The translations under genes were made by a program, and so were the position numbers. This document shows, piece after piece, positions 10,855 to 32,947 of a DNA stretch of 32,947 bases. The stretch covers positions 1 to 32,947 of the forward strand of contig JAFSZU010000146.1 in NCBI GenBank assembly GCA_017455585.1. The letters are read 5' to 3'. The DNA comes from Bacteroidaceae bacterium (GTDB taxonomy: Bacteria; Bacteroidota; Bacteroidia; Bacteroidales; Bacteroidaceae). How positions within the stretch are numbered: position 1 is the first letter of the stretch; each line of letters begins with the position of its first letter. The notes beneath the pieces were generated by a model. The model saw only the letters and a program-made list of their open reading frames with translations, had not been told where the DNA came from and ran no database searches.

Positions 10855-11013
10855 ACCACAGATTACACAGATTTATCAGATTCATGTCCTCTCATTATAT
10901 CTTGTTATTTCACAGATTAACATAGTTTGATTTATCAGCTATCTTTAATCTGTGAATATATAGGATATAATCTTCATTTGAAAAGAATCCGTTTAATCTG
11001 TGTAATCTGTGGT
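10855..11013. repeat. Palindromic intergenic element A (nested inverted repeats)
   Basis: The outer arms ACCACAGATTACACAGATT (10855-10873) and its exact reverse complement (10995-11013) are a perfect 19-bp inverted repeat. Inside it, TTCACAGATTAA (10909-10920) and its exact complement (10945-10956) form a second 12-bp pair. The AT-rich 159-bp element fills the gap between the CoA-transferase and tyrS genes. A related element with the same nested design is at 29250-29426. It encodes no credible protein. Confidence 0.8.
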
Positions 11014-11019
11014 GAATAA

Positions 11020-17071: not shown

Positions 17072-17131
17072 CAATTTGTAAATTGTCAATTTGTAAATTG
17101 TCAAATCGTAAATCGTCAAATCGTCAAATCA
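17072..17131. repeat. Stuttered AATTGTCAAATCGTAAA-type repeats before queA
   Basis: The gap holds TTTGTAAATTG twice, then TCAAATCG-type words in a row. The 15-mer TAAATCGTCAAATCG (17109-17123) is found exactly, in reverse complement, inside hypD at 21367-21381. It ends just before the queA start. Confidence 0.8.
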
Positions 17132-17135
17132 ATAT

Positions 17136-18200
17136 ATGAAGCTCTCACAATTCAAATTCAAACTCCCCGAGGAGCGCATTGCCCTCTATCCCGCACCTTT
17201 CCGTGACGAGTGCCGTCTCATGGTCCTCCACACCCAAAGCGGTGTGATTGAGCACCGCGAGCATTTCTATGACATCCTCGAATACTTTGATGACCATGAT
17301 GTCCTGGTTTTTAATGACACCAAGGTCTTCCCGGCCCGCCTTGAAGGCAACAAGGAGAAGACGGGTGCCAAGATCGAGGTCTTTCTTCTGCGAGAGCTCA
17401 ACCCGGAGTTCCGCCTCTGGGATGTACTGGTGGAACCCGCCCGCAAGATTCGTATTGGCAACAAACTCTATTTCGGTGAGGACGAGAGCATGGTGGCAGA
17501 AGTCATCGACAACACAACCAGCCGCGGTCGCACCCTGCGTTTTCTCTACGACGGCCCGCACGAGGAGTTCAAAGAGGCACTCTTTGCCTTGGGCGAAGCG
17601 CCCATTCCCCACAAGATACTGAACCGTCCTGCCGAACTACAGGACATGGAGGACTTCCAGTGTGTCTTTGCCAAGAACGAGGGTGCAGTGACAGCCCCAA
17701 CCGCAGGTCTGCATTTCTCCAAGCAGCTGCTCAAGCGCATGGAGATCAAGGGCATTGAGTCGGCGTTCGTCACTCTACATTGCGGCCTTGGCAATTTCAG
17801 AGACATTGATGTGGAGGACTTGTCCAAGCACAAAATGGAGAGCGAGGAACTGCATGTGAATGCTGAGGCGTGCCAGATTGTCAACCGTGCCAAGGACGAC
17901 GGCCGACGTGTCTGCGCCGTAGGCACCACTGTGCAGCGTGTGCTGGAGACGGCCATCGGCGCCGACATGCGCCTGAAGCCCTTTGATGGGTGGACCAACA
18001 AGTTCATCTATCCGCCCTACGAGTTCGGCATCGCCGATGCTATGGTGGCCAATTTCTACATGCCGCTCTCCACGCTGCTCATGCTCACTTGTGCCTTCGG
18101 AGACTACGATTTGGTGATGAAAGCCTACAAGGAAGCCCTGCGTGACACCCGTTACCGCTTCGGTACATACGGCGACGCCATGCTCATCCTTAAGGACTAA
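17136..18200 (+). CDS. queA: S-adenosylmethionine:tRNA ribosyltransferase-isomerase
   Basis: This 354-residue QueA transfers and isomerises the ribosyl group of AdoMet to make epoxyqueuosine in tRNAs with a GUN anticodon. Family motifs are [13 protein letters not shown] at the N-terminus, [14 protein letters not shown] (about 61-74), [13 protein letters not shown] (about 186-198), [14 protein letters not shown] (about 210-223), and [23 protein letters not shown] late in the chain, given here in parts. Length is normal for the family. It follows truB with a 77-base gap made of stuttered repeats. The pairing of two tRNA modification genes with folK is normal for this phylum. Confidence 0.96.
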
Positions 18201-18203
18201 CAT

Positions 18204-18387
18204 CATTTACCATTTAGCCATTTACCATTTAGCCATTTACCGTTTTACCATTTAGCCATTTACCATTTACTATTTATGTACTATTTAAATCATTGGCTAT
18301 TTGCAGAACGGTCGGAGCCATTATCAATGCCAATAAAACTCATCGTCAATAAATGGTAAATGGTAAAATGGTAAATGGTAAATTAGT
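18204..18387. repeat. Inverted cluster of ATTTACC words between queA and folK
   Basis: CATTTACCATTTAGC-type words repeat about six times at 18204-18277, and the complement AAATGGTAAATGGTAAA repeats at 18351-18387, so the two clusters face each other around about 70 bases of unique DNA and could form a long imperfect hairpin. The right cluster supplies the folK start. Its 17-mer at 18351-18367 recurs exactly (reverse complement) inside hypD at 21378-21394. Confidence 0.8.
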
Positions 18388-20759: not shown

Positions 20760-23195
20760 TCACACCTCTTCATTCTCGGTGCGGGCGATGATTTCGTTCT
20801 GCAACTGCGCGGTCATATCGTTGAAGTAGTCTGAGTACCCGGCGACGCGGACCAGGAGATCCCTGTAGTTGTCGGGGTGCTTCTGGGCATCGAGCAGGGT
20901 GGCGGTATCGACGATGTTGAACTGGATGTGGTGGCCGCCGAACTTGAAGTAGGTGCGGATGAGGTGTCCGAGTTTCTTCATGTCTTCCTCGCGCTTCAGC
21001 AGGTTGGGCACGAAGCGGACGTTGAGCAGTGTGCCGCCGCTCTTGGTCTGGTCGAGTTTGCCTAGCGACTTGATGACGGCTGTGGGGCCGTGGCTGTCGC
21101 TGCCATGGGCGGGGCTGGTGCCGTCCGAGATGGCGAAGTGTGCGAAACGGCCGTTGGGTGTGGCACCGCAGACGCTGCCGAAGTAGTTGTGACAGGTCGT
21201 GGAGAGCATGTTTAGCTGCGTCTTTCCGCCGCGGGTGTTGGGCCGGCCCTCGATGGCCTTCACCAGGTCATCATAGACGCGCACGGCGATGTTGTCGGCA
21301 TACGGGTCGTCATTGCCGAAGAAAGGCGTGTGGTTGCGGATGTACTGACGCACCACTTCAAATTTACGATTTGACGATTTACCATTTACCATTTCTCCTG
21401 TTCCCCAGTTGCTGGCGCACGCCTCCAGTATCTCATCCATCGTATAACGCTTGTCCTCAAACACATGCTTCTTCAAGGTCGTGAAGCAGTCTGTGATGGT
21501 GCCGAGACCTGTGCACTGGATGTAGGTGGTGTTGTAACGGGCACCGCCGCTGTAATAGTCCTTGCCCTTCTCAATGCAGTCGTCGATGTAGAGGCTGAGG
21601 AAGGTGGCGGGGGCATAGAGCGAGAACATTCGCTCGATGTAGTTGTTCACCGAGAGCTTCAGGTTGACGAAATACACCATCTGCTTGTGCCAGGCGTCGT
21701 AGAGTTCCTCGAAGGTCTTGAACGTGCGCGGGTCGCCGGTCTCCAGTCCCAGCTTCTTGCCCGTTTCGGGGTCAATGCCGTTGTTGAGGGTGATTTCCAG
21801 TATCTTCGGGGTATTGAGGTAGCCCGTGAGCAGGTAGGCCTCCTTGCCGAAAGCACCCACCTCTATGCAGCCAGAGCAGCCGCCCTCGCGGGCATCCTCC
21901 AGCGTCTTGCCCTCGCGCACGAGTTCCTTAATATAAGTATCTGGGTTGAAGACCGAGGGGTAGCCGTGCCCCTGACGGATGACCTTGATGCCCTCAAGCA
22001 GGAACTCGTCGGGCGTGTTCTCTGCGATGTGTATGCTGAGGCCGGGTTGCAGCTCATGTAACTCTTCCTGGATCTCCAGAATCATGTAAGAAATCTCGTT
22101 GGCCGCGCTGTTGCCGTTGCGGTCCACGCCACCGATATTGATGTTCGTGAAGTCGTTGTAGGTGCCGCTCTCCAAAGCCGTTACGCCCACCTTCGGCGGT
22201 GCAGGCTGGTTGTTGAACTTGATCCAGAGGCACGAGATGAGTTCCTTGGCTTGGTCACGTGTCAATGTGCCTTCTTCCACCCCCTTCTTGTAGAAAGGAT
22301 AAAGGTGCTGATCGATGTGTCCAGGATTCATGCTGTCCCACCCGTTCAGCTCCGTGACGGTGCCCAGGTGCACAAACCAGTACATCTGAATGGCTTCCCA
22401 CAGGTCACGTGGCGCGTGGGCTGGCACATGATGACAAACGTCTGCTATCTTCTTTAATTCATTCTTCCTTTGAAGGTCGTTTGTTTGGGCTGCCATCTTC
22501 TCTGCCAACTCCGCATGGCGCTCTGCGAAGAGGATGGCCGCGTCGCAGGAGATGGCCATGGCCTCCAGCTCCTGCTGCTTGTCGGTGGCTTCGGGGTCGT
22601 AGATGTAGTCGAGGCTTTTGATTTTGGCTTCGATGCGGGCCTTCACGTCCAGGAGTCCCTCATGGTACATCTTGCCGTCCATTGCGGTGTGTCCGGCTGC
22701 GCGCTGTTCCATGAACTCCGTGAAGACGCCGGCGTGGTAGGCCTCTTCCCACTCCTTGGAGACGTGGTTGAAGATGCGCTCGCGCTGTGTCTTGCCGGCC
22801 CAGTAGGGGATGACCTCGCGCTCGTAGGTATCGATGTCCTCCTGCGAGATGGTGTAACGCTGCAGCTCGCGCTCGTTCAGCGTATGCAGGTCTTCCACAC
22901 TGTGGCAGGTCAGCTCGGGGAACGTGGGCACGGCCTTGGGCAGTGGGCCGCGCTCACCCACGATGAGTTCATCCTTGCCGATATAGATTGTCTTCTTTTT
23001 ACATATCTCATAGAAGTTGCGGGCGCGCAGCACGGGTGTGGGCATGGTGCCGTAGTTCTGTTTGTAGAACGCCGTCTCAATGAGTGCGCGCTCGATGCTG
23101 AGCGTGGTTGGGGTATCAAAGTTCTCTTGGCGGAGCCGCTTGATGCGCTCGTTCATGCCGCCTTCATTCTCTGGATGTTTGATGCTAAAGTTCAT
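20760..23195 (-). CDS. hypD: Glycyl radical enzyme, trans-4-hydroxy-L-proline dehydratase type
   Basis: This 811-residue enzyme has a PFL domain and a C-terminal glycyl radical loop RVAGYSDYFND with Gly786. The active-site motif GGCSGCIEVGAFGKEAYLLTGY, read in parts as SGCIEVG and LLTGY, carries the thiyl Cys443 and base Glu445. D287, S343, F349 and Y459 line up with HypD residues D278, S334, F340 and Y450 at a constant +9 offset (numbering from memory), supporting dehydration of hydroxyproline to pyrroline-5-carboxylate, which ProC can reduce to proline. No activating radical SAM enzyme is adjacent. Residues 602-611 (MVNGKSSNRK) are encoded by a dispersed repeat. An alternative start is Met14. 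It is oxygen-sensitive by family, consistent with an anaerobe. Confidence 0.88.
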   Translation of the reverse strand: MNFSIKHPENEGGMNERIKRLRQENFDTPTTLSIERALIETAFYKQNYGTMPTPVLRARNFYEICKKKTIYIGKDELIVGERGPLPKAVPTFPELTCHSVEDLHTLNERELQRYTISQEDIDTYEREVIPYWAGKTQRERIFNHVSKEWEEAYHAGVFTEFMEQRAAGHTAMDGKMYHEGLLDVKARIEAKIKSLDYIYDPEATDKQQELEAMAISCDAAILFAERHAELAEKMAAQTNDLQRKNELKKIADVCHHVPAHAPRDLWEAIQMYWFVHLGTVTELNGWDSMNPGHIDQHLYPFYKKGVEEGTLTRDQAKELISCLWIKFNNQPAPPKVGVTALESGTYNDFTNINIGGVDRNGNSAANEISYMILEIQEELHELQPGLSIHIAENTPDEFLLEGIKVIRQGHGYPSVFNPDTYIKELVREGKTLEDAREGGCSGCIEVGAFGKEAYLLTGYLNTPKILEITLNNGIDPETGKKLGLETGDPRTFKTFEELYDAWHKQMVYFVNLKLSVNNYIERMFSLYAPATFLSLYIDDCIEKGKDYYSGGARYNTTYIQCTGLGTITDCFTTLKKHVFEDKRYTMDEILEACASNWGTGEMVNGKSSNRKFEVVRQYIRNHTPFFGNDDPYADNIAVRVYDDLVKAIEGRPNTRGGKTQLNMLSTTCHNYFGSVCGATPNGRFAHFAISDGTSPAHGSDSHGPTAVIKSLGKLDQTKSGGTLLNVRFVPNLLKREEDMKKLGHLIRTYFKFGGHHIQFNIVDTATLLDAQKHPDNYRDLLVRVAGYSDYFNDMTAQLQNEIIARTENEEV
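21359..21395 (-). repeat. Dispersed repeat inserted in frame within hypD
   Basis: This AT-rich stretch is composed of two words found elsewhere in the window: bases 21367-21381 match the reverse complement of 17109-17123 (before queA), and 21378-21394 match the reverse complement of 18351-18367 (start of folK), both exactly. It codes for MVNGKSSNRKF in a place where the family has no such segment, and keeps the frame. Confidence 0.85.
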
Positions 23196-23225: not shown

Positions 23226-23270
23226 CATATTATTTACGATTTTGCGATTTACTATTTACAATTTATTTGA
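23226..23270. repeat. Stuttered repeat in the hypD/CotH divergent promoter region
   Basis: TATTTACGATTTTGCGATTT and then ACTATTTACAATTTATTTGA repeat the ATTTACRATTT words seen at 12536-12560, 17072-17131 and inside hypD. It occupies the region where the -33 element of hypD would be. Confidence 0.6.
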
Positions 23271-29230: not shown

Positions 29231-29249
29231 GATTCCTTATCTTTTATAC

Positions 29250-29426
29250 ACCACAGATTGCACAGATTACACGGATTACCTATCCTCTTGTCTTTTTTAA
29301 TTTATTTCGATATTACACAGATTTTTAGTGAAAGACTACGCGAGAATGGTGTACTGTCTGAAATCTGTGAAATGATAGACCAAGATTTCATATCAGAGAA
29401 CAAGAAAAATCTGTTTAATCTGTGGT
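29250..29426. repeat. Palindromic intergenic element B (relative of element A)
   Basis: The outer arms ACCACAGATTGCACAGATT (29250-29268) and AATCTGTTTAATCTGTGGT (29408-29426) pair at 17 of 19 positions. Inner words ACACAGATT (near 29315-29323) and AATCTGTGA (29362-29370) face each other. The design and end sequence match element A at 10855-11013, but the unique interior differs. It sits inside the efflux operon between the TolC-like and adaptor genes. Confidence 0.75.
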
Positions 29427-29432
29427 ATATTA

Positions 29433-30893
29433 TTAGAACTTCAAAGTGAGGCTGCGCAGTCCGTAATACAGGCTCCAGTAGGCCTGCAGGGCACTGATGA
29501 AGGCGCGCTGGGCGTTGTCCTTCTCGCTGATGCTGGTGTTGAACTCCAGTAGGCTTGTGCGCCCTTGCAGATACATCCACCGCGCCACCTCATAGCGCCG
29601 CAGGGCTGTCTCCCGCGTGCGGTAGGCAATCTTCACGCGGTAGCCTTGCAGGTTGTATTGCCTGACCATCTTCCGCACGTTCAGCCGGAAGTCCTGCATC
29701 GCCTGTTCACTCTGAGTCTGCGTCAGCTCCAGCCTCGACTTCGCCACCTGCACCTGTCCCTTGCCGCGTCCCCAGTCGAGCAGGGGCAGCGACAGTGACA
29801 GGCTCACATACTGCTGGTTGAGTGGCTTGGTGTAGGCTTCCTTCAGTGTGACACCTGTCTGCGAAAGGCCAAACTGCACGTAGAGTTCTGCCTTCAGGCC
29901 ACGGGCGGCCTTGGCCGATGACAGCGCACTCTCGCTCTCCATGACGTTCAGCCGCAGTTGTTCCGGGTCGGGGTTGTTCTGCAGGGCCAGCACCAGTGCC
30001 TCCCCGGCATCCACCACGTCTGCGCTGATGAGCGTGTCAGGCACCACCGCCAGCGGCACCTCGTCCTTGATACCCAAGTAGGAGCGCAACGTCTGCATGG
30101 CATCTTCCACCTCCGCCTCCGCGTTCAGGCGGTTGGTCTCCTCGCTGAGTTTGCTGACCTCCAGCTGCAACATCTCGTTCTCGGTGATGCTGCCCCGCTC
30201 ATAGCGCCGACGTGCATAGCGGTGCAGGGTGTCGCTGACGGCGTAGTTCTGCCGCGCGATGTCGAGGTTGGTCTGTGCCGAGGCGAGCATAAAGAAATAA
30301 GTACTCGCGCGCGAGGCCACCAGCTCCATCGTCTCGGCATACTGCTTGCGGGCGATGCGGTGGCGCAGCGGCTCCGTGCGGCGTGCCCACCGCAGGCTGT
30401 TGTGCCCGAAGAGGCTCTGCTGATAACCGACGGAGAAAGGCACGCTGCTGTAGCCGTATGTCCGCTGCTCGAACTCGTCCTGGCGGTAGAGGTTGCTGCG
30501 CATGAAAAGCGTGCCGCCCGTGGATGCTACGTTCTGTGTGACAGAGAGCCCGAGGTCTGTGCTGAGTTGGTTCTGCCGCACAAAAATATTGGTACCATTG
30601 GGCTGCGTGATGCTGCTGACCTGGCGGTTCAGGGCGGGCGAACTGCTCAAAGACACCGATGGCAGGTAGTTGGCCTGATAGTAGCGGAAACTCCATTCTG
30701 CCGCCTCCAGCGTGTGCCGTGCCGCCAGCGCATCGCTTGACTGCCGCTGTGCCAGTGCCACGGCTTCGGAAAGTGTCAGCGTCAGCGTGTCGGCAGGGAG
30801 GGTTCTCGACGGGGAAACCGCCGAGCACACTCCAGCAGGTATCATCGTCGCCAGCAATGCTATGAACATCCACCTTCTCATCACGTCCCTCAC
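29433..30893 (-). CDS. TolC-family outer-membrane efflux channel
   Basis: The product has 486 residues with a signal peptide (cleavage near VCSA, about 25). Two repeated OEP halves follow (about 38-250 and 270-480), each with long heptad-rich helices and a strand pair: LTLSEAVALAQRQSSDALAARH opens the first (seen as LTLSEAVALAQ), and AGEALVLALQNNPDPEQLRLNVMESE the second (seen as LALQNNPDPEQLRLN). This is the trimeric channel that receives substrate from the adaptor. Its start overlaps the end of the ATPase gene by 4 bases (ATGA), showing translational coupling. A start 12 bases later (Met5) is possible. Confidence 0.92.
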   Translation of the reverse strand: MRDVMRRWMFIALLATMIPAGVCSAVSPSRTLPADTLTLTLSEAVALAQRQSSDALAARHTLEAAEWSFRYYQANYLPSVSLSSSPALNRQVSSITQPNGTNIFVRQNQLSTDLGLSVTQNVASTGGTLFMRSNLYRQDEFEQRTYGYSSVPFSVGYQQSLFGHNSLRWARRTEPLRHRIARKQYAETMELVASRASTYFFMLASAQTNLDIARQNYAVSDTLHRYARRRYERGSITENEMLQLEVSKLSEETNRLNAEAEVEDAMQTLRSYLGIKDEVPLAVVPDTLISADVVDAGEALVLALQNNPDPEQLRLNVMESESALSSAKAARGLKAELYVQFGLSQTGVTLKEAYTKPLNQQYVSLSLSLPLLDWGRGKGQVQVAKSRLELTQTQSEQAMQDFRLNVRKMVRQYNLQGYRVKIAYRTRETALRRYEVARWMYLQGRTSLLEFNTSISEKDNAQRAFISALQAYWSLYYGLRSLTLKF

Positions 30894-31633
30894 AGTTCCA
30901 CTTCTGTCATCACTTGACCGTCGAAGAGGTTGATGATACGCTGGGCATAGGAAGCATCGCGTTGCGAGTGGGTCACCATGACGACGGTGGTGCCCTCGCT
31001 GTGCAGTTGCTTGAGCAGTTCCATCACCTCGCGGCCGTTCTTGGAGTCGAGGTTGCCCGTGGGCTCGTCGGCCAGAATGAGCTTGGGACGCGAGACCACG
31101 GCACGGGCGATGGCTACGCGCTGCTGCTGACCGCCACTGAGCTGGCGCGGGAAGTGTTTGGCACGATGGCTGATGCCCATGCGCCGCATGACTTCGTACA
31201 CGCGTTGGCGGCGTTCGCTCCTCGGGATGCCCATATACAGCAGCGGCAGCTCGATATTCTCTTCCACACTCAGGTCCTCGATGAGGTTGAAGCTCTGGAA
31301 GACGAAGCCGATGAGGCCTTTGCGCAGACGGTCGCGCTGCGGCTCGCTGAGGTTGCTCACGTCCTGTCCGCCTAAGAGATACTGCCCTTCGGTGGGGGCA
31401 TCCAGGAGTCCGAGGATGTTGAGCAGCGTGGATTTGCCGCAGCCGCTGGGACCCATGATGGCGACGAACTCGCCTTCATTGATTTCGAGATTCACGCCGT
31501 TGAGGGCGATGGTGCGCACTTCTTCTGTCGTGAAGCTGCGCTGGAGACTTTGGGTGTGAATAAAAGACCCACCCCCGACCCCACCCGTAAGGGAGGGGCG
31601 GGGTTGGCGCAATGTTTGATTTTGATTACTCAT
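30890..31633 (-). CDS. MacB/LolD-type ABC transporter ATPase
   Basis: The product has 247 residues. Walker A is GPSGCGKS (61-68), the signature LSGGQQQRVAIARA begins at 165, and Walker B is LILADEPTGNLDS (185-197), the LolD/MacB variant. It powers the MacB-type permease encoded upstream. The family core begins at HTQSLQRSF (about 26); the residues before it, PRPSLTGGVGGGS (11-23), are encoded by a G-rich dispersed repeat that occurs twice more nearby. The ATG at 31633 lies before that repeat, so it probably entered between the start codon and the core. The catalytic core is intact. The gene is coupled to the TolC-like gene by a 4-base overlap. Confidence 0.93.
   Translation of the reverse strand: MSNQNQTLRQPRPSLTGGVGGGSFIHTQSLQRSFTTEEVRTIALNGVNLEINEGEFVAIMGPSGCGKSTLLNILGLLDAPTEGQYLLGGQDVSNLSEPQRDRLRKGLIGFVFQSFNLIEDLSVEENIELPLLYMGIPRSERRQRVYEVMRRMGISHRAKHFPRQLSGGQQQRVAIARAVVSRPKLILADEPTGNLDSKNGREVMELLKQLHSEGTTVVMVTHSQRDASYAQRIINLFDGQVMTEVEL
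31566..31607. repeat. G-rich dispersed repeat at the 5' end of the ATPase gene
   Basis: GACCCACCCCCGACC (31566-31580) followed by a CCC..AAGGGAGGGG hairpin-like stretch. On the coding strand it reads RPSLTGGVGGGS. The first 15 bases are identical to 32933-32947, and the CTCCC/GGGAG portion resembles 31685-31723. Confidence 0.85.
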
Positions 31634-31684
31634 AGTAGCTTAGTGGTTTATAGTTATAAATGAATATTATTCTTGAGAGGTAAC

Positions 31685-31723
31685 TTCCCCCTCCCCTCCC
31701 TCATGGGAGGGGGCGGGGGTGGG
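31685..31723. repeat. G-rich dispersed repeat/hairpin after the permease gene
   Basis: CCCCTCCC (31693-31700) and GGGAGGGG (31705-31712) form an 8-bp stem with a 4-base loop, followed by GCGGGGGTGGG. It begins directly at the permease stop codon (31726-31728 on -) and may act as a processing site or attenuator, though there is no T run. Confidence 0.75.
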
Positions 31724-31725
31724 TT

Positions 31726-32947
31726 TTAGTTCTCCTTCAGCACCTCATACGCCCTGATCCTCGTGGCCTTCCACACCTGCTGCCACAGCGTCAGAGCGCA
31801 GAGCGCGAGGATGAGGGCAATGCTGGCAAGGGGAATCCACCAGGCGAAGGAGGTGCGGACGGTGTAGGTGGCCATGAGACGGTGGATGACGAGGAGGCTG
31901 ACGGGTAGCGAGGCGACGGCAGCCATGGTAAAGACGATGAGGTAGCGGCGGGAGAGCAGCAGGGCGATGTCTCGGAAGGTGGCGCCGTGCACCTTGCGGA
32001 GGGCTATCTCGCGGTAGCGGCGGCGTATCTCAAAGAGCATCAGCCCCAGCACGCCTAAGCAGGTGACAGCGATGGCCAGCAGCGAGAAGGTGACGAAGAT
32101 GCGGGCTGTGCGCTGATCCTCGCTGTAGAGCGCCTTGCGCTGGTCTTCCACCCATTGGTACTTCAGGTCGTTGGTGCCGAAGAGTTCTTTCTGCAAGTCC
32201 TTCAGGTCGCGGATGATATCCTCCTCGTGTCCTTCGGCTATATCAAGCAGGTAATTGCGTCCCTCCATCTGATGTGCATCAAAGATATCGTATTCTTTTG
32301 TCCAGTTCTCGATCATCAGCAGCAGAGGGCGTATGGGTTCCGACTGACGTCCCGGGTTGAAGTCCTTCACCACACCTATAATCCGATAGGGCGGGTTGCT
32401 GCTGCAGTCTTTGTCACTGCTCCACCAGAGGCGGTCGGCAAACTGCACAAAGTCCGTCTCGCGGTTCTTGATGCCTAATGCTTTGATAGCCGACTCGTTG
32501 GCCACGCAGACATAATCATCCATCGATAAACTGTCACTGGGCAAGATGCCCTCTATCAGTTGCAGACCAAACATGCGTACTGCATCTCCCGTGATATACA
32601 TGATATCTACCTTGTTGCCATCTGCAAGGTCGAATGGCATGTTCCCGTTAATGAATCCCCCGTCCAAGGTAACCCCCTTCAAGTAGGGACAGGCATCTAA
32701 CTTCTGTTTCACCACCTGCGTCTGGCTGTTCTTCTGCGCAATCATGGCTTCAAATTCTTCCATCGTCCACGAGCCACGAGAGGGTGGTGGATAGATGGTG
32801 GCATTGAGCAGCCCACGGGTGCGGAACCCCGGGTCGGCACTCATCATCACGTTCAGCTGGCGCATGAAGTAGAGGCTGACGTTGAGGAGGGTGAGGGAGA
32901 TGAAGAATTGGAGGAAAAGAAAAGCCCCAGCAGACCCACCCCCGACC
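31726..32947 (-). CDS. MacB/FtsX-type ABC transporter permease, C-terminal part (partial)
   Basis: The minus-strand frame is open from the window end (first full codon 32946-32944) to the stop, at least 406 residues. An ATG at 32865 is internal. The N-terminal visible part AFLFLQFFISLTLLNVSLYF is a membrane helix, followed by QLNVMMSADPGF, the typical MacB sequence after its helix. A periplasmic domain of about 200 residues and the FtsX-type three-helix end (LGLMLFEIRRRYREIALRKVHGAT, seen as RRRYREIALRKVHGAT) follow. It forms the export complex with the downstream ATPase, TolC-like and adaptor genes. Just before the helix the residues VGGGSAG are encoded by a dispersed repeat. Substrate is unknown. 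Confidence 0.9.
   Translation of the reverse strand, partial: VGGGSAGAFLFLQFFISLTLLNVSLYFMRQLNVMMSADPGFRTRGLLNATIYPPPSRGSWTMEEFEAMIAQKNSQTQVVKQKLDACPYLKGVTLDGGFINGNMPFDLADGNKVDIMYITGDAVRMFGLQLIEGILPSDSLSMDDYVCVANESAIKALGIKNRETDFVQFADRLWWSSDKDCSSNPPYRIIGVVKDFNPGRQSEPIRPLLLMIENWTKEYDIFDAHQMEGRNYLLDIAEGHEEDIIRDLKDLQKELFGTNDLKYQWVEDQRKALYSEDQRTARIFVTFSLLAIAVTCLGVLGLMLFEIRRRYREIALRKVHGATFRDIALLLSRRYLIVFTMAAVASLPVSLLVIHRLMATYTVRTSFAWWIPLASIALILALCALTLWQQVWKATRIRAYEVLKEN
32933..32947. repeat. G-rich dispersed repeat in the permease gene, cut by window end
   Basis: These 15 bases are identical to 31566-31580. They lie in frame in the permease gene directly before a membrane helix, coding for VGGGS. 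The rest of the copy lies beyond the window. Confidence 0.8.

Follow-up and report, generated by a model that had tools for sequence, protein, structure and literature searches.

Palindromic elements of Rickettsia, reportedly described by Ogata et al. in 2000 and 2002, are said to be about 150 bp long and to lie in frame in several genes. A review (PMC10969869) describes Rickettsia as a group in which dispersed repeats have invaded metabolic genes in frame unusually often. For five Bacteroidetes (MacGregor 2015, PMC4679880), TAACTGA heptamers are reported as forward direct repeats just upstream of start codons; the genes concerned are functionally unrelated, and a translational role of the repeats was proposed. 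The Bacteroidetes phylum is mostly devoid of Shine-Dalgarno sites (PMC3155529), and in Flavobacterium initiation is reported to be favored by adenines at positions -3 and -6, as well as by those in a region that extends to -13 (PMC6847099).

Here we analyzed a 32,947-nt stretch of DNA of a Bacteroidaceae bacterium (contig JAFSZU010000146.1), referred to as the window. We propose, with a probability of roughly 0.86, that a 37-base piece of its hypD gene derives from AAATSGT, a dispersed repeat specific to the lineage, and was inserted in frame. No report of in-frame and leader repeats of this kind was found in the literature searched, in which few subscription papers were within reach; the accessible part of PMC5771137 held no relevant passage.

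The in-frame insertion in HypD

The features of the window are collected in Table 1. In a profile search, the equivalog model NF043068 matched residues 15-809 of the HypD protein with 1129.2 bits (cutoff 1100). The Cys of SGCIEVG (443) and the Gly of RVAGYSDYF (786), both aligned with 6vxc, we take to be the catalytic Cys and the glycyl radical Gly of the enzyme.

Table 1. Coordinates of hypD, its insertion and the remaining repeat-related features of the window.
Feature	Position	Strand	Remarks
queA leader array	17081..17127	+	final AAATCGT ends 11 bases upstream of ATG 17136
queA	17136..18200	+	
Longer related array between queA and folK	18203..18276	-	A-rich on minus strand
Repeat at folK start	18350..18384	+	HPPK domain from residue 13
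hypD, trans-4-hydroxy-L-proline dehydratase	20760..23195	-	811 aa, uninterrupted; NCBIfam and 6vxc
In-frame repeat insertion with GAA flanks	21357..21395	-	reads E-MVNGKSSNRKF-E
Related repeat upstream of hypD	23232..23264	-	36 bases before ATG; off the 11-base leader spacing
Palindromic element, AGACCC-like	31564..31727	.	arms 31564-31603 and 31688-31727

As given in the preliminary description, the piece codes for MVNGKSSNRKF, which we located at residues 602-612 of the 811-residue frame (bases 21360-21392, minus strand). The region is encoded by a 36-base insertion; at this place 12 residues are missing from the C. difficile enzyme (6vxc/6vxe). Before the site query residue 421 corresponds to chain residue 432, and after it 727 corresponds to 726; the offset thus shifts by 12, indicating a 12-residue insertion between the two anchors and agreeing with the displacement of about 12 residues previously noticed between the catalytic residues. 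The site in the window consists of NWGTGE, MVNGKSSNRKFE and VVRQ, and empty sites of relatives have the form NW...EVMRQ, e.g., NWGTQEVMRS in L205. The words shared with the queA leader and the folK start were also recovered, but their lengths, put earlier at 15 and 17 bases, had to be corrected to 17 and 18, respectively. Other 37-base pieces of hypD have at most 10 bases in common with these leaders when compared on the same strand.

The insert itself folds weakly. For the 39-base stretch a z of -2.80 was obtained, with 5 of 200 shuffles folding as well, and internal inverted repeats were therefore rejected as its basis. No terminal inverted repeats were found in it, its hairpin comprising 6 pairs only, while inserts of relatives have long arms. 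The loop that carries the peptide is presumably exposed and the enzyme would still be working.

Should folK start at ATG 18353, its first 10 codons (MVNGKMVNGK) would likewise be derived from the repeat. Repeats of yet another dispersed type, CACAGATTACACAGATT, occur in the window at 10855-11019, 29244-29277, and 29404-29435.

Copies inside genes and before start codons

The repeat is built of 7- and 8-base units, AAATSGT with an optional base, and two units make 15 bases, or five codons. Searching the genome to which the window belongs (G000; 2.82 Mb, 80% complete) gave 72 matches to AAATSGTNAAATSGT (43 forward, 29 reverse) vs. 3 for the reversed control, and 6 matches to the exact 19-base word AAATGGTAAATCGTMAAAT vs. 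none for its control. These counts bear out the dispersed nature of the repeat claimed at the outset. By merging neighbors at most 60 bases apart, the 72 matches were grouped by place into 55 arrays, and 54 were retained after one with identical flanks (C1:14719) was set aside. Fourteen of these are in coding frames, 28 are leaders and 12 are unclassified; the last class includes L102 (C45), which has open frames yet also lies 11 bases before an ATG. The copies are lineage-specific: AAATSGTNAAATSGT matched 72 times in G000, 77 times in G015, 23 in G019, 20 in G018, and 0-13 times in the 21 other genomes of the same genus. Among 16 genomes of the same order, G034 gave 23 matches (control 5) and the remaining ones 0-1.

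All 14 in-gene arrays, a list settled by hand, lie on the coding (A-rich) strand, and 13 of them in one frame. The matched array reads K[S/W][S/L]N[G/R] in 13 cases; that of L133 is shifted by one base (MVNGKMVN). The resulting unit peptide, NGKSSN or NGKWSN, is short and hydrophilic. Apart from HypD, the copies reside in GuaA (L092), RlmN (L104), UxaC (L125), a GH127 enzyme (L138; aceric-acid-hydrolase model, score under its cutoff), the beta-xylosidase Xyl3A (L096), CarA (L121), and at seven protein C-termini (L087, L090, L108, L119, L133, L141, and L146), with the frames of L119 and L141, of about 100 residues, ended by contig ends. Some of the C-terminal copies have the arrangement YDLSGRQ-MVNGKWSNGQ-ISKGVYIVNGKK, with YDLSGR-like or FDL.GR-like motifs in the tails; tails of the YDLSGR type resemble, we assume, a secretion tail. 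Of the six exact AAATGGTAAATCGTMAAAT copies, five belong to this in-frame set, namely those in HypD, GuaA, RlmN, UxaC, and the GH127 enzyme; the sixth (L139) is part of a non-coding array whose end lies 11 bases before the ATG of a putative gene. The commonest unit can be read without a stop in four of its six frames, of which two belong to the opposite strand and give hydrophobic peptides. The uniform strand and frame of the in-gene copies, despite four open frames, point to selection, which would have acted against broken or hydrophobic insertions. We also observed that RlmN (L104, 436-1704, plus strand) appears to contain three repeat-like segments, SSKFKVDSS, EMVNGKSSNGKWLNGQ, and the C-terminal THPLTPPCEGGE.

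Each of the 28 leader arrays is followed, after 45 bases at most, by an ATG that begins a long frame, with the A-rich strand as the coding one; among the non-genic arrays, 3 have an ATG of this kind facing the other way. Sixteen of them end exactly 11 bases before the ATG. Of 127 leaders from the repeat-carrying loci, window included, 20 contain at least two units, and 13 of these 20 have their last unit ending 11 bases before the ATG; leaders without units show no such 11-base preference for AAAT. At distinct ATG places among the listed rows (71 of 84 for G000, all 59 for G015, and all 20 for G003), the spacing of 11 was found in 27 of 64, 28 of 52, and 5 of 19 places, respectively. The other 37 places in G000 have different spacings, the next commonest being 2 (15 places), where the ATG is mostly inside AAATGG or AAATG words, i.e., repeat-derived. 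Several genes with the 11-base spacing do begin at this ATG, judged by homology, which extends to residues 1-2 in RpsJ, Kbl, NrdD, LpxC-FabZ, and QueA. For 6 of the 16 genes with this spacing no NCBIfam model matched at 1e-20, and the named ones have no evident common function.

Insertions in HypD and other enzymes of relatives

To the HypD of the window we aligned the best 80 of 568 tblastn matches. Of these 81 sequences, 27 have 6-34 extra residues at the main site and 54 have no insertion of at least 5 residues there, in keeping with the insertion first proposed. A second site near residue 240 has more than 3 extra residues in 12 of the 81, the window not among them. In several of the 27 sequences, unrelated repeats, including palindromic elements and CAACTGTC-type arrays, occupy the main site, which is a hotspot. 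We assigned 13 of the 27 inserts to families: AAATSGT (window and L022), CAAYTSTC-like (L054, L064, L065, and L074), GC-rich palindromes (L018, L020, L024, L025, L026, and L044) and, weakly, GAACTCC (L015). The other 14 have no assigned family and some may be ordinary loop growth. The insert of L022 is of the same length and type as that of the window, yet L022 belongs to another clade.

The palindromic inserts gave hairpin z values of -4.33 (L020), -12.91 (L024), -8.22 (L025), -3.80 (L026), and -5.07 (L044); that of L018 (z -1.42, 22 of 200 shuffles as good) was rejected as a better-than-shuffled fold. Long hairpins with inverted ends are formed by the inserts of L020, L024, and L025, and five palindromes tested from the second site reached z values of -3.58 to -9.10. 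A word of the L020-type element, AGACCCNCCCCCNACCCCTCC, matched 60 times in the L020 genome, 30 times in G015 and 21 times in the genome of the window; it was present in 7 of the 10 genomes searched, with a control of 0 in all ten. The hypD element of G015 had 67 matches in G015, 32 in the genome of L025 and 3 in that of the window, most of the G015 and L025 matches covering one arm or a part of the element only. The GC-rich palindromes probably move in a MITE-like manner. The palindromic element of the window (Table 1) is not among the 21 exact AGACCCNCCCCCNACCCCTCC matches. It extends across the predicted start into an ABC-transporter gene (30890-31633, minus strand), and the part RQPRPSLTGGVGGG of the predicted N-terminus would be element-derived if the ATG at 31633 is used.

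When each insert was compared with the sequence around it (flanks of 3.6-7.0 kb, or 30.5 kb in the case of the window), word sharing exceeded every control piece in 3 of the 27 sequences (window, L025, and L074), and no shared word was found in 17. As few inserts share words with their flanks, whole genomes were searched for some families. Matches to CAAYTSTCAAYTSTC vs. its reversed control, a poor one here since arrays of this periodic word can match it reversed too, were 48/16 for L054, 18/1 for L064, 164/12 for L022, 33/6 for L015, 108/73 for L074, 181/182 for L065, 17/23 for L028, 59/48 for the window's own genome, and 0/1 for L012, whose insert is among those without a family. GAACTCC matched 4 times in the genome of L015, at two places, one of them probably hypD itself, and was absent from the four other genomes searched. 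At the second HypD site, L028 and L041 carry a further tandem type in frame, TATGAGTCC-like; CTATAAGTCCTATAAG-like words also precede a start codon in the genome of the window (L140).

On a quick tree with SH-aLRT support only, in which gains and losses are inseparable, the presence of inserts took 19 changes vs. a shuffled mean of 23.06. The insert state is thus somewhat clustered, indicating that some inserts are inherited. With the 13 family-assigned inserts and the empty rows only, 10 changes were counted.

The absence of the insert in orthologues was compared for HypD, GuaA, UxaC, and CarA. In an alignment of 30 of the GuaA loci matched, 24 rows have no insert at position 174 of our protein, and in 6, among them that of our genome, the protein is longer there by at least 3 residues (SSNSKSLNGKSSNSKSLNS in our own; EAVNGKSSNG in L149). 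Extra residues at position 348 occur in 8 of the 30 rows and include SKSSNSK, NQSSNSK, and a palindrome-type peptide. A LSGEEARRVLAAGVP-type insertion in 10 GuaA rows was discarded, as no obvious repeat was seen in it. UxaC is without the segment in 19 of 23 rows; the remaining four have 8 residues (IVNGKSSN, IVNRKSSN, IAQRTSSN, and IGKNESSN), best read as one inherited insertion that would be decaying. For CarA 23 rows were aligned, one of them ending short of the linker before VVLVDCGVKA. Fourteen of the 22 that reach the site have no insert, and 8 have at least 3 extra residues, which differ in sequence (NSSLFTLHSSL, NYELCIENYEL, and LSNCKSSNRQ). The initial reading of the window is supported by these data, although it was incomplete: the hotspot, the at least six other enzymes and the phasing of many leader arrays to start codons were not part of it.

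Ordinary loop growth by local slippage, with the likeness to leaders being a convergence of A-rich words, would suit a HypD loop that is generally variable in length and the inserts without an assigned family. Yet the insert shares words of 17-18 bases with the leaders vs. at most 10 elsewhere in hypD, a 19-base word is common to five genes, and multi-copy palindromic elements of about 100 bases sit at the same site in other species. For the window this explanation is largely refuted already and we consider it very unlikely. A small chance is also given to an insert adaptive in HypD, e.g., by tuning oligomer contacts or how the activating enzyme gains access. The insert has stayed in frame and the loop has been used more than once, but sequence, length and chemistry vary by species, 54 of the 81 sequences do without it, and the same repeat is present in unrelated enzymes. 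In-gene copies and leader arrays belong to one sequence family, and the former might thus be internal translation starts or regulatory sites, as leader copies may be. Since no ATG lies 11 bases past the HypD copy, the next in-frame GTG codons being at 9 and 12, we find this highly improbable. An artefact of metagenome-assembled genomes is scarcely credible: judged by title, insert-bearing records are from metagenomes or uncultured bacteria, three apparently cultured strains (L027, L046, and L071) are without the insert and no second assembly with the window's own insert was seen, but the 80 aligned coding stretches have no in-frame stop (as tblastn matches they favor in-frame copies) and almost the same insert (95% over 105 bases) is present in L025 and L204, which are separate assemblies.

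Proposed mechanism and comparison with known systems

In-frame insertion of a dispersed repeat, our preferred reading, could have proceeded as follows. Copies would spread by recombination or template switching between arrays and become fixed inside genes where the strand and frame of the host give a short hydrophilic peptide, so that in-gene insertions would be retained where they fall in loops or linkers and keep a hydrophilic frame open. In HypD the insertion point lies between two conserved blocks, after NWG.GE and before VVRQYIRN, at a site tolerant of extra residues. Leader copies would act in translation initiation, with A-rich unstructured arrays helping it to occur without Shine-Dalgarno sites. 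More tentatively, the AAATSGT arrays may be a mobile, self-spreading translation-initiation element that settles at a fixed distance from the start codon, its 15-base period keeping a hydrophilic frame open and in-gene copies being tolerated as loop peptides. If this doubtful but possible scenario is true, bacteria of this group would carry several competing repeat families able to rewire leaders as well as to remodel enzyme loops.

In rumen Bacteroidales, too, repeats have invaded genes in frame, and loops already occupied by one family have been used by unrelated ones. Such insertions amount to natural experiments in the tolerance of enzymes for added peptides. The start-codon-phased AAATSGT leaders are, in turn, a candidate translation signal in a phylum mostly without Shine-Dalgarno sites.

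MITE-like features are confined to inserts of relatives and do not extend to that of the window; elements related to those of L020 and L025 are multi-copy in the respective genomes. As with the Rickettsia palindromic elements, one repeat is found in frame in several unrelated genes and gives a recurring peptide. Unlike these palindromes of about 150 bp, the family of the window consists of short tandem 7/8-base units with little hairpin potential and has a second home in the start-codon-phased leaders. With the TAACTGA repeats it shares heptamer-type forward tandem arrays near the start codons of functionally unrelated genes, but the unit is AAATSGT with a 7/8 spacing. In the largest TAACTGA class described, a single nucleotide (1 nt) separates the repeat end from the start codon, whereas for AAATSGT arrays the commonest distance is 11 bases. 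Forward TAACTGA contains stops in all three frames, and copies within genes are therefore mostly in reverse orientation or at the periphery; AAATSGT has open forward frames and lies inside enzymes.
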